From SAR202 cluster bacterium bin87 (lineage in GTDB: Bacteria; Chloroflexota; Dehalococcoidia; Lucifugimonadales; UBA3495): a stretch of 64,000 nt of DNA. How positions within the stretch are numbered: position 1 is the stretch's first letter; each line of letters starts with the position of its first letter. Positions 28,905-50,580 of this stretch are shown one piece after another. Made by a program: the position numbers and the translations under genes. Location: the NCBI GenBank assembly GCA_002238825.1, contig MPNC01000015.1, positions 1-64,000 of the forward strand. The letters are read 5' to 3'. Below the pieces are notes generated by a model. It had not been told where the DNA came from. It was given only the letters and a program-made list of their open reading frames with translations, and searched no databases.

Positions 28905-29085
28905 TGAGGCTTTCTACAATGTTGCCAGCGCGGCCAGTGTCGGCCGGAAACGGCTCCCGGGCGCGTTCTGCGGCCTTGGTAGTGGAATTGCTGCACAGGC
29001 GCGAAAGCGGTGCCCTGTGGCGCTGCGGAGAAAGTGGTGAGGTGTGACGAAAACCGGCCGCCCTGACGTCAGGGCGGCCGGCGTC
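28905..29085 (-). repeat. R2 leader repeat upstream of A1, including a 28-bp perfect palindrome at 29054-29081
   Basis: Reverse complement shares CAATTCCACTACCAAGGCCGCAGAACGCGCCCGGGAGCCGTTTCCGGCCG...GCTGGCAACATT with other R2 copies; CCGGCCGCCCTGACGTCAGGGCGGCCGG. Confidence 0.75.
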
Positions 29086-29268
29086 GCCGTTGGGTTTCGG
29101 CGATGCAACTGCGGACATGGTAATTGGCCACGTTTATTGGAGGCGGGGTTGTGGCAGTGTGCTCCCGGGCAGGCGTACCTTTCTTGGGTGTCTCCGTCGA
29201 TATGATTTCGACAATCAACGATGTGGCTTGGGCGGCGTACCGCCGGAGTTTGCGCGGGAGCGATTGAC

Positions 29269-30060
29269 ATGTCGAGCAGGATCTTTAGGACGTGGCTGGC
29301 CTTGGCGATGGCGGTGCTGACCGTTACGGGCACGCTGGCGTGCTCCAGCATCAGCAGTGCTGAGCACGAACAGGCTTTAGTGGCGCAGGCCGCCGCCGCC
29401 CAGGCGCAAATCGACACCATCACCCAGGATCACGGCAAGCAGGTTGCTGAGCTTACGTCTGAGCTGGATGAGGCGCGCGAAGAAGTCGCTGGGCTGGAGA
29501 CGGAGGCAGCTGCGCTGAGGGCGGCTGGGGATGCCCAGCTGGAGAATGTCGAGCGCCTTGAAGTCCTGCTGTCTCAAGAGTTAGAAGCGGCGCAAGAGTC
29601 GCGTGAGGTGGCGGTTGATGCAGCACGGAGAGAAACTAGATGGACGTGGGATCCTGGAATGTTGACAGACGGGGGCGAGATTTTTTCCGTCGTCGGCTGG
29701 GCTTTCAGTCTTGAGGAAGTATCACCGCTTCAAATAGGTCTTTATGCAGAGTGCATCCAAGACGAAAGCAACTACCTTTACCTGTGGGATGATGTCATCT
29801 GGGAGGATGAGACAGAGTACATAGCTCGGGTGGGTCTTGACGGAGGACGACCGCGCAATGAAACAGTCTGGGGGTTCGGCGGTGCCTTTGGTGCCTTCGC
29901 AGACCTAGATGGCAAAGACCTGTGGGAATTGGAACGCATCCACGTGGAGTTAACCTACGGAGATGATCCGTCCTCGGTGACGTTTGACACGGCCCAGTTG
30001 CGACGTATGTTCCCCACCGAAGCCGATTTCTGCAACGGAGAAAAACCGGTGGGATACTGA
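29269..30060 (+). CDS. Putative lipoprotein with coiled coil
   Basis: Lipobox-like LTVTGTLACSS; heptad-rich region; 263 aa. Confidence 0.7.
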   Translation: MSSRIFRTWLALAMAVLTVTGTLACSSISSAEHEQALVAQAAAAQAQIDTITQDHGKQVAELTSELDEAREEVAGLETEAAALRAAGDAQLENVERLEVLLSQELEAAQESREVAVDAARRETRWTWDPGMLTDGGEIFSVVGWAFSLEEVSPLQIGLYAECIQDESNYLYLWDDVIWEDETEYIARVGLDGGRPRNETVWGFGGAFGAFADLDGKDLWELERIHVELTYGDDPSSVTFDTAQLRRMFPTEADFCNGEKPVGY

Positions 30061-30079
30061 TGCGTCATGACCACCATGG

Positions 30080-49800: not shown

Positions 49801-50177
49801 GCTCGAGGACCTGCGGACTAAGACCCGACGGATCAATCGAGTGCTGGGGTTGGGCGCTGGAGCCCGACCATCGTAAGCGGACACCGCCAGGTCCGTACCG
49901 GACCTTCCGAATCGACGGCGCCACCTGCGGCATTCGTTTCGACGGCACCGCAAGCTGCTGGAGCACCCAGCAGTTCACCACTCTAACCGAGATAGTCGGC
50001 GGAATTGGGATTGAAACCGGCGACTACTTCGTAGAGTGCGAGCCTGGAGGCTACGTCTCTTATTTTTCGAGCGACCGGAGCAGGGCTGGTACAACCATCG
50101 GCGGAACGACGTTCACCGTCACGGATGGAGACGAGATCGTAATCTCCAAGTGCGAATTGAAGAGGGAAACACCATGA
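46872..50177 (+). CDS. Protein kinase fused to HEPN-like, transmembrane and RCC1-like repeat domains
   Basis: Kinase-like AVRCFTN...IAHNDLQHGNVIV...LVDYDGLYVP; RX4H motif RNDHAH (48198-48215); two hydrophobic segments; repeated CGLRxDGxxxCWG units. Confidence 0.85.
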   Translation: MPWPGLNHLQAALQHPVRAFSDPTLRRGKVARNRLGLPVSWCGNFAAVFKVTVGQDEYAVRCFTNNPSGKQHRYKAIALHLKTYGRPATFVDFDYQQTGLICRGQAYPLISMPWINGQTLDEFAYDNIGNAHVLEQLASEWYQAATQLQGLPIAHNDLQHGNVIVEPGNPPSIKLVDYDGLYVPQFANQHSPENGHRHYQHPARTTADYGPEIDNFPALVIYTSLVALARDPGASARRATSESLLFAQDDLKDPTNSKLFQYLGQSSDQQTAHLAKALSNAAKGLVTATPTLAQVSTQKATKTLPSWLTQTPPLPNTAPWTPPAPAASSRPTTQPPPGTSPAPQDPAQRNRNLIDEELQKIGRDLKPAVIKYALQMQQEGWTFRNVKGTAGNHIGSVKDLENSGPDATALAGVLLAILDYRQNDPLSNFGMSKANVVRMRNIRNDHAHSRVDFSDQDYVDRTLQTLRNFRQSIDRLPQTLPGSQRSNQGRNPQRGNRGRNPQNRPYGQSHRPRNQAGSQRNRRQPQQNPTPAPAVPTHNPHPTLERLLAQCFLVSTVFSVTLVTLLISQRISMEDLSMVLIGVVVMMGSGFWLWKTSDDPVGKVGQELQKAAILAATLAKRAFQATAKIQDRRIRWAVRIAPIVVLAGAAIYLYTPTNVASTLDSDTVKYWMELPNTQVSQPSLPTRRIQVMPQVAMVPTPSTHDTLPHAVAVPTPSTYGILPGTCQQTEVGHTVCIGNQEGQPERPPHIVDDGRPLQASLCVAVGTENDCLDWIQDTPAGLQFLDIQKGNSRACGITTDETIVCWGADVQNQLDAPPGEFVALTTGGSHSCALRHNGTTECWGDNTFNQLATPPNRFKEISAGGNSTCGIDYDNALVCWGNEWEYRSAPIGTTELTTVSSGGNHTCGLRADGTPTCWGGNKPENNVAPAVKLVSINAGYENTCGMMTDGNAVCWGENEHGETQVPPGKFTDIQTDGSRTCGLRPDGSIECWGWALEPDHRKRTPPGPYRTFRIDGATCGIRFDGTASCWSTQQFTTLTEIVGGIGIETGDYFVECEPGGYVSYFSSDRSRAGTTIGGTTFTVTDGDEIVISKCELKRETP

Positions 50178-50429
50178 CGACGTTGACCGCATCGACCGAG
50201 GACAGATTGCGCAAGCCCAACGCTCCATCCTGGTGGAGAACCTGTGGGACGTCATGAGGAACCACAAATAGGCCGAGCGGCACCGGAAGTTGGCCCGCTA
50301 ACAGACGTTAGGACAGACCCACCCAGACGGACCACCAAACGAGATCCGCCAGCCACCGGCACAATGGAACCGTTGCCGACCAACAGTGCCGGCGGCCGCA
50401 GCCCACCGGCCGTTTCTGTTACCGGCCCT

Positions 50430-50580
50430 TCGATTTCGCCCCAACGGCGCCCTGTGGCGCCGTTTTCACGTCAGCAGGACTATCTCCCGCCTCAACGGGC
50501 GCAGAGCGCGCCCCGGGGCCGTTTCCGGCCGGAATTGACCCGTGCTGGCAACATTCTGCAAAGCGCCGACAACGTCCGTG
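50430..50580 (+). repeat. R2 leader repeat upstream of A3
   Basis: CCCCAACGGCGCCCTGTGGCGCCGTTTTCACG...GCGCCCCGGGGCCGTTTCCGGCCGGAATTGACCCGTGCTGGCAACATTCTGC. Confidence 0.8.

Follow-up and report, generated by a model that had tools for sequence, protein, structure and literature searches.

The repeat R2, present six times in the 64,000-nt stretch of DNA analysed here (the window), is best read as a composite palindromic repeat of the REP/BIME type, interspersed in the DNA behind the genes of accessory islands and forming a recombination joint between gene modules, a reading to which we assign a probability of about 0.55. As judged by sequence comparison, R2 is polar along the islands, lies behind co-oriented genes, at their 3' ends, and marks one-sided ends of homology, and it is apparently non-coding. 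BLAST and a covariance model both located R2 at 6/6 of the places where a sequence-only reading of the window had recognised it, the first three on the minus strand:

28911-29084, minus strand: R2 copy 1; 145.7 bits (covariance model, R1); ends 43 nt before the start of A1
29999-30150, minus strand: weak partial second R2 unit beside copy 2; 29.7 bits
30215-30390, minus strand: R2 copy 2; 142.6 bits; no A gene adjoining; faces the 3' end of the gene at 29269-30060 (+)
34383-34558, minus strand: R2 copy 3; 137.9 bits
38153-38327, plus strand: R2 copy 4; 103.8 bits; 47 nt past the stop of the gene at 37798-38106 (+)
39545-39721, plus strand: R2 copy 5; 147.5 bits; ends 88 nt before the start of A2
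50383-50562, plus strand: R2 copy 6; 136 bits; ends 87 nt before the start of A3

In a search of 320 kb, the covariance model returned the window copies with E-values of 1e-26 to 1e-38. These scores are partly a matter of construction because five of the 22 copies used for training came from the window; the BLAST E-values are independent of the model and were 1e-7 or better for all six copies. The tandem arrangement of copy 2 and its weak partner recurs at C4:8153-8313 and C38:5932-6033. Three window copies lie upstream of family A genes and in the same orientation, as had been proposed. The genes are:

27978-28868, minus strand: A1, 296 aa, 56% identity to A2; adjoins R2 copy 1
39809-40921, plus strand: A2, 370 aa, with no match in Pfam or PADLOC and no relative in a scan of the genome-contig collection; adjoins R2 copy 5
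50649-52109, plus strand: A3, 486 aa, with a sub-threshold HNH match near the C-terminus; adjoins R2 copy 6

Alignment of the copies with their flanks led to a full unit of about 178 nt (about 175) composed of two GC-rich hairpins and a conserved arm. The repeat described earlier was thus real and its length of about 130 nt too short, as hairpin H2, where R2 had been taken to begin, is preceded at about 45 nt by a further hairpin, H1 (GCCGGCCGCC...GGCGGCCGGTTTCGTT). Behind some copies stands one more H1-like hairpin or part of a second unit; 29999-30150 (-) and C4:8153-8313 are examples. Both hairpins can be followed in single copies of the window:

29053-29084, minus strand: hairpin H1 of R2 copy 1 (GCCGGCCGCC...GGCGGCCGG), read from the sequence and from helix counts
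39605-39626, plus strand: hairpin H2 of R2 copy 5 (ACGGCGCC-loop-GGCGCCGT), a palindrome with a partial covariance-model match also on the minus strand

In the genome G000 (4.96 Mb, 67 contigs) 33 R2 matches were found by BLAST, palindrome cross-hits included, and 53 by the covariance model at E<=0.1. About 30 of the copies are clear and most of these intergenic, so R2 is neither a chance similarity nor specific to A genes. The copies are clustered on a small number of contigs or at the ends of contigs (C4, C12, C17, C18, C20, C38, C39, C46 and others), in accessory, defence-rich stretches. At least one R2 match was detected in 9/14 genomes of the same genus (G000 counted), mostly few per genome and some of them marginal, while BLAST of 46 genomes from other genera returned no match. 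Nothing was obtained from plasmid, phage and viral collections save one 27-base pattern match. A 20-base R2 pattern was found in contig JAJDTP010000029.1, annotated as 'Dehalococcoidia bacterium', with an R2 score equal to that of G012:C20; another 20-base match lies on an Aminicenantes contig and has no R2 around it. As far as these collections reach, R2 thus appears restricted to one genus of Dehalococcoidia, represented by MAGs.

The position of R2 relative to genes is one-sided. Within 300 nt, the preceding gene was co-oriented with R2 in 17 of 21 cases (p=0.007), its stop codon often 20-130 nt before the repeat, and the following gene in only 12 of 22 (p=0.83), which ties R2 to the 3' ends of genes. 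Gene calls came from a simple home-made codon-score caller, so distances to R2 are approximate, and the p-values are nominal since the copies share ancestry. Possibly R2 also acts as a 3' insulator. Neighbouring genes encode GmrSD-type restriction proteins (C12, C38), PD-(D/E)XK/Cas4-like nucleases, an FRG-TPR protein, Uma2, PaREP1, a DUF433 protein and a TnpB-like protein, and a tyrosine recombinase adjoins the copy on C6; many neighbouring proteins have no Pfam match, and PADLOC returned candidate-defence matches for 3 of the 10 that were submitted. In the window, a gag-type aspartyl protease, a VWA-like protein, a PP2C-like phosphatase and a large RCC1-repeat protein are encoded in a row at 43191-50177 (+) and may constitute a signalling or conflict module. 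MutL is encoded at 53797-55743 (+), and a second gene for a MutL C-terminal part lies on another R2 contig (C4 15227-16306 (-), L036).

R2 copies were also compared pairwise, together with 1.5 kb of flanking sequence. Six pairs have one flank in common (about 88-100% identity), and the homology of the other flank ends inside R2:

L038_3095/L039_12114: breakpoint near position 75 of 178
L041_2246/L048_10722: breakpoint near position 57 of 178
L038_6284/L042_2137: breakpoint near position 140 of 178
L048_10722/window 34383: breakpoint between positions 100 and 140
L037_2714/L046_12149: breakpoint between positions 55 and 120
L045_19677/L049_14460: breakpoint near position 40 of 178

Copy 3 of the window illustrates this: its downstream flank is near-identical to that of C45:10722-10891 and its upstream flank differs. 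In all, the homology breaks inside R2 in 6 of 7 duplicated neighbourhoods; in the pair L046_2748/L049_14460 both flanks are common, reflecting duplication of a whole R2-bearing segment. In addition, an IS21-type element (IstA-like rve/Mu-type transposase and IstB) splits an R2 copy on C43, related to the pair L046_2748/L049_14460, near position 105-110 (C43:45.7-47.9 kb; L050:7714-9935), and intact counterparts of this copy are present on C39 and C6. The flank comparisons gave recombinant joints and neither target duplications nor clean empty sites. As the breakpoints vary, homologous recombination between copies is favoured over a single site-specific step. The sequence-only reading had also considered a mobile or target site recognised by A or B proteins: the idea is borne out in part, as a recombination site agrees with the homology switches inside R2 and with the IS21 insertion, and nothing was found that would link it to A or B.

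Recombination between R2 copies would insert, delete and exchange gene modules. As the breakpoints are distributed along the unit, the simplest route would be homologous recombination of the RecA type, with the copies as direct repeats. A circle inserted via one R2 would leave all copies as direct repeats, by which the polarity would be maintained. Most copies are about 70-87% identical to one another and would be poor RecA substrates, so the recombination is expected to be old or to have taken place between closer copies. With less confidence, H1 and H2 may be taken to terminate transcription, or to stabilise the mRNA, at the 3' side of the upstream gene; their tails carry 4-7 T and neither hairpin passed a terminator scan, owing to the shortness of these T tails.

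A classical REP unit is a short palindrome of 20-65 nt with a GTAG or CGTC tag. Modular phages, for their part, carry short conserved boundary or linker sequences where modules meet and mosaic homology changes over; R2 would resemble these in sitting at such switches, and differs from them in having no match in the phage, plasmid and viral collections beyond the short pattern already mentioned. REP/BIME is the nearest known kind. REPs are known as targets of insertion sequences and as recombination sites (PMC1525189), and one R2 copy has likewise been hit by IS21 and homology switches at R2. Most REPs are found downstream of genes, where the adjoining ORFs are unidirectional or convergent (PMC3733652), and R2 is also extragenic and mostly downstream of genes, a composite palindrome with two hairpins and tens of copies. 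In contrast, the R2 unit of 130-178 nt is much longer than classical REPs, it is far rarer (tens instead of hundreds of copies) and confined to islands, and no GTAG or CGTC tag is apparent in the alignment. R2 copies are nearly all one way round, whereas the REPs of BIMEs stand in alternating orientations (PMC2817692). A REP-associated Y1 transposase (RAYT, PF01797) gave no match at E<=0.01 in G000, with positive controls. Because of these differences in length, copy number, polarity, tag and transposase, R2 is called REP/BIME-like and not a REP.

The uniform polarity of R2 is accompanied by an asymmetry of the DNA strands. Successive copies on one contig are co-oriented in 22 of 23 cases, and the forward strand of R2 is the C/A-rich strand (negative GC skew) for 32 of 34 copies, including several with the opposite coding direction. 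On core contigs the coding-strand skew at third codon positions was -0.127 (GC) and -0.085 (AT). Genes of R2 islands gave -0.251 (GC) and +0.204 (AT) when co-oriented with R2, and -0.002 (GC) and -0.304 (AT) when oriented against it. Relative to the core baseline the two groups of genes are shifted in opposite directions, and shifts as extreme occurred in 0 of 2000 label permutations, which points to a strand-specific bias on the islands that is independent of the direction of the genes. Within the window, the GC skew passes sharply from +0.12-0.17 to -0.15 within 35000-38000 (sign change near 35-36 kb) and the AT skew changes sign too, coinciding with the interval, 34.5 to 38.2 kb, in which R2 turns from the minus to the plus strand; candidate explanations are a terminus, an origin or an inversion. 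The same interval also harbours an IscB element at 35631-37330 (+), consisting of a HEARO/omega-RNA match (E 0.001, below the gathering score) with an IscB gene (RRXRR and HNH) behind it, which appears to lack TnpA as no Y1 transposase was found in the genome; between this element and an R2 copy lies a gene with a SocA/Panacea antitoxin domain (34853-35386 (+)).

Chromosomal replication skew was considered as the cause of the polarity, and an asymmetry bound to the islands was preferred to it, as sampled skew is weak in the core contigs and in the complete relative G010, and the asymmetry on contig C33 of G003 starts at an island edge: it begins sharply near 134 kb, where four same-strand R2 copies lie beside ruvB, and is absent from the core sequence just before. 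We conclude that the strand asymmetry belongs to the R2 islands. Candidate causes are own replication, repeated single-strand exposure and shared descent. The same skew signs were seen at C42:146-162 kb and C12:95-107 kb; the repeat genes there run in one direction, and the skew may therefore be coding-driven. In the latter region seven genes of about 508 aa each stand in tandem, weak R2-like matches lie near their stop codons, and the one of the seven that was run had no Pfam match.

Two other explanations of R2 were weighed. The strict orientation relative to the C/A-rich strand, the hairpins and the many unrelated neighbouring genes would suit R2 being a MITE- or PATE-like element, small, mobile and non-autonomous. 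It would insert one way round only, for instance into single-stranded DNA of one replication strand, with a transposase acting in trans. We consider this unlikely, as the genome has no Y1 transposase of the IS200/IS605 type, neither a target duplication nor a clean empty site was found, and the homology usually extends from R2 into the flank of a gene and is seldom limited to the repeat. Passive descent, improbable in our view, would make the islands relics of one plasmid- or ICE-like lineage with unidirectional replication, with R2 as its intergenic element, spread by duplication; descent alone would then explain polarity and skew. The confinement of the skew to islands and its sharp onset in G003 together with an R2 array would agree with this, as would the duplication of a whole R2-bearing segment (L046/L049) and the occurrence of one subfamily of large serine recombinases (28% pairwise) on three R2 contigs, always co-oriented with R2 (C12:20816-22759, C45:22357-24165 and C17:9350-11329). 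However, R2-bearing relatives do not have this recombinase, the island genes tested include no replicon genes, and the homology breaks inside R2 are left unaccounted for. The absence of the recombinase from these relatives also led us to discard it as the enzyme acting on R2.

A third explanation, in our estimate quite unlikely, would be that modules are shuffled as cassettes by a system that has nothing to do with integrons and swaps them at R2 via single-stranded intermediates of one fixed strand. If true, the uniform orientation and the C/A versus G/T asymmetry of the islands would both follow from the R2 bottom strand being exposed repeatedly. Strand polarity matters for integrons as well, Vibrio-type chromosomal integrons placing the bottom strands of attC on the leading-strand template (PMC11023631); by the usual skew rules the forward strand of R2 would be the lagging strand, unlike theirs, although the direction of replication is not established here.

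The sequence-only reading had proposed that R2 is a leader of the family A genes, as a structured ncRNA or an attenuator. The position of R2 43-88 nt ahead of all three A genes in the same orientation, together with its hairpins, would fit control of these genes by an attenuator or a structured RNA leader at their 5' side, but we regard this as very unlikely. G000 has only three A genes versus about 30 clear R2 copies, most of which adjoin unrelated genes. A weaker relative of the A genes in G012 (41% identity over the N-terminal part) has no R2 upstream. The orientation of R2 follows the preceding gene and is random with respect to the following one, which speaks against this reading. For three helices in 22 copies, 81.6% of cells were paired compared to 79.7% in shuffles (helix 1 in 72% only), with few compensatory changes and 12 two-sided ones where 6.2 were expected; the primary sequence is better conserved than the pairing. 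RNAalifold gave a consensus fold of -0.99 kcal/mol and Rfam no match. Of the H2 loops, 6 are CTGT-type and 13 ACAG-type; the two types are mutual reverse complements, which suggests that a DNA palindrome has been inverted, more than that selection acts on a loop in RNA. A conserved structured RNA is therefore not supported by these comparisons; copies across the genome that are not linked to A or B and covariation barely above shuffles are the very outcome named beforehand as speaking against it. The association of A1-A3 with R2 is probably due to shared descent of the repeat plus gene.

CALINs, the clusters of integron cassettes, may be without an integron integrase. An attC site of a chromosomal integron or of such an integrase-less cluster was rejected as the least likely identity of R2, as the likeness in position 3' of genes, head-to-tail polar arrays, core of about 130 nt, genus-specific sequence and diverse, defence-like cargo is opposed by the absence of the RYYYAAC...GTTRRRY core pair from all 32 copies on either strand, by TIGR02249 matches in G000 that all remained below the integron-integrase cut-off and lay mostly away from R2, by a spacing of several kb, by varied breakpoints in place of one crossover point, and by a sequence conserved more than its pairing.

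Therefore, from its place behind co-oriented genes, the homology switches inside the unit and the IS21 insertion, a REP/BIME-like recombination joint is the reading of R2 that we prefer, and its strand polarity is the feature worth following. If R2 marks the joints of exchangeable modules, it would offer a handle on the entry and exit points of accessory and defence genes in a poorly known lineage of Chloroflexota. Its tie to the strand asymmetry of the islands gives a testable clue to the way in which these were propagated.
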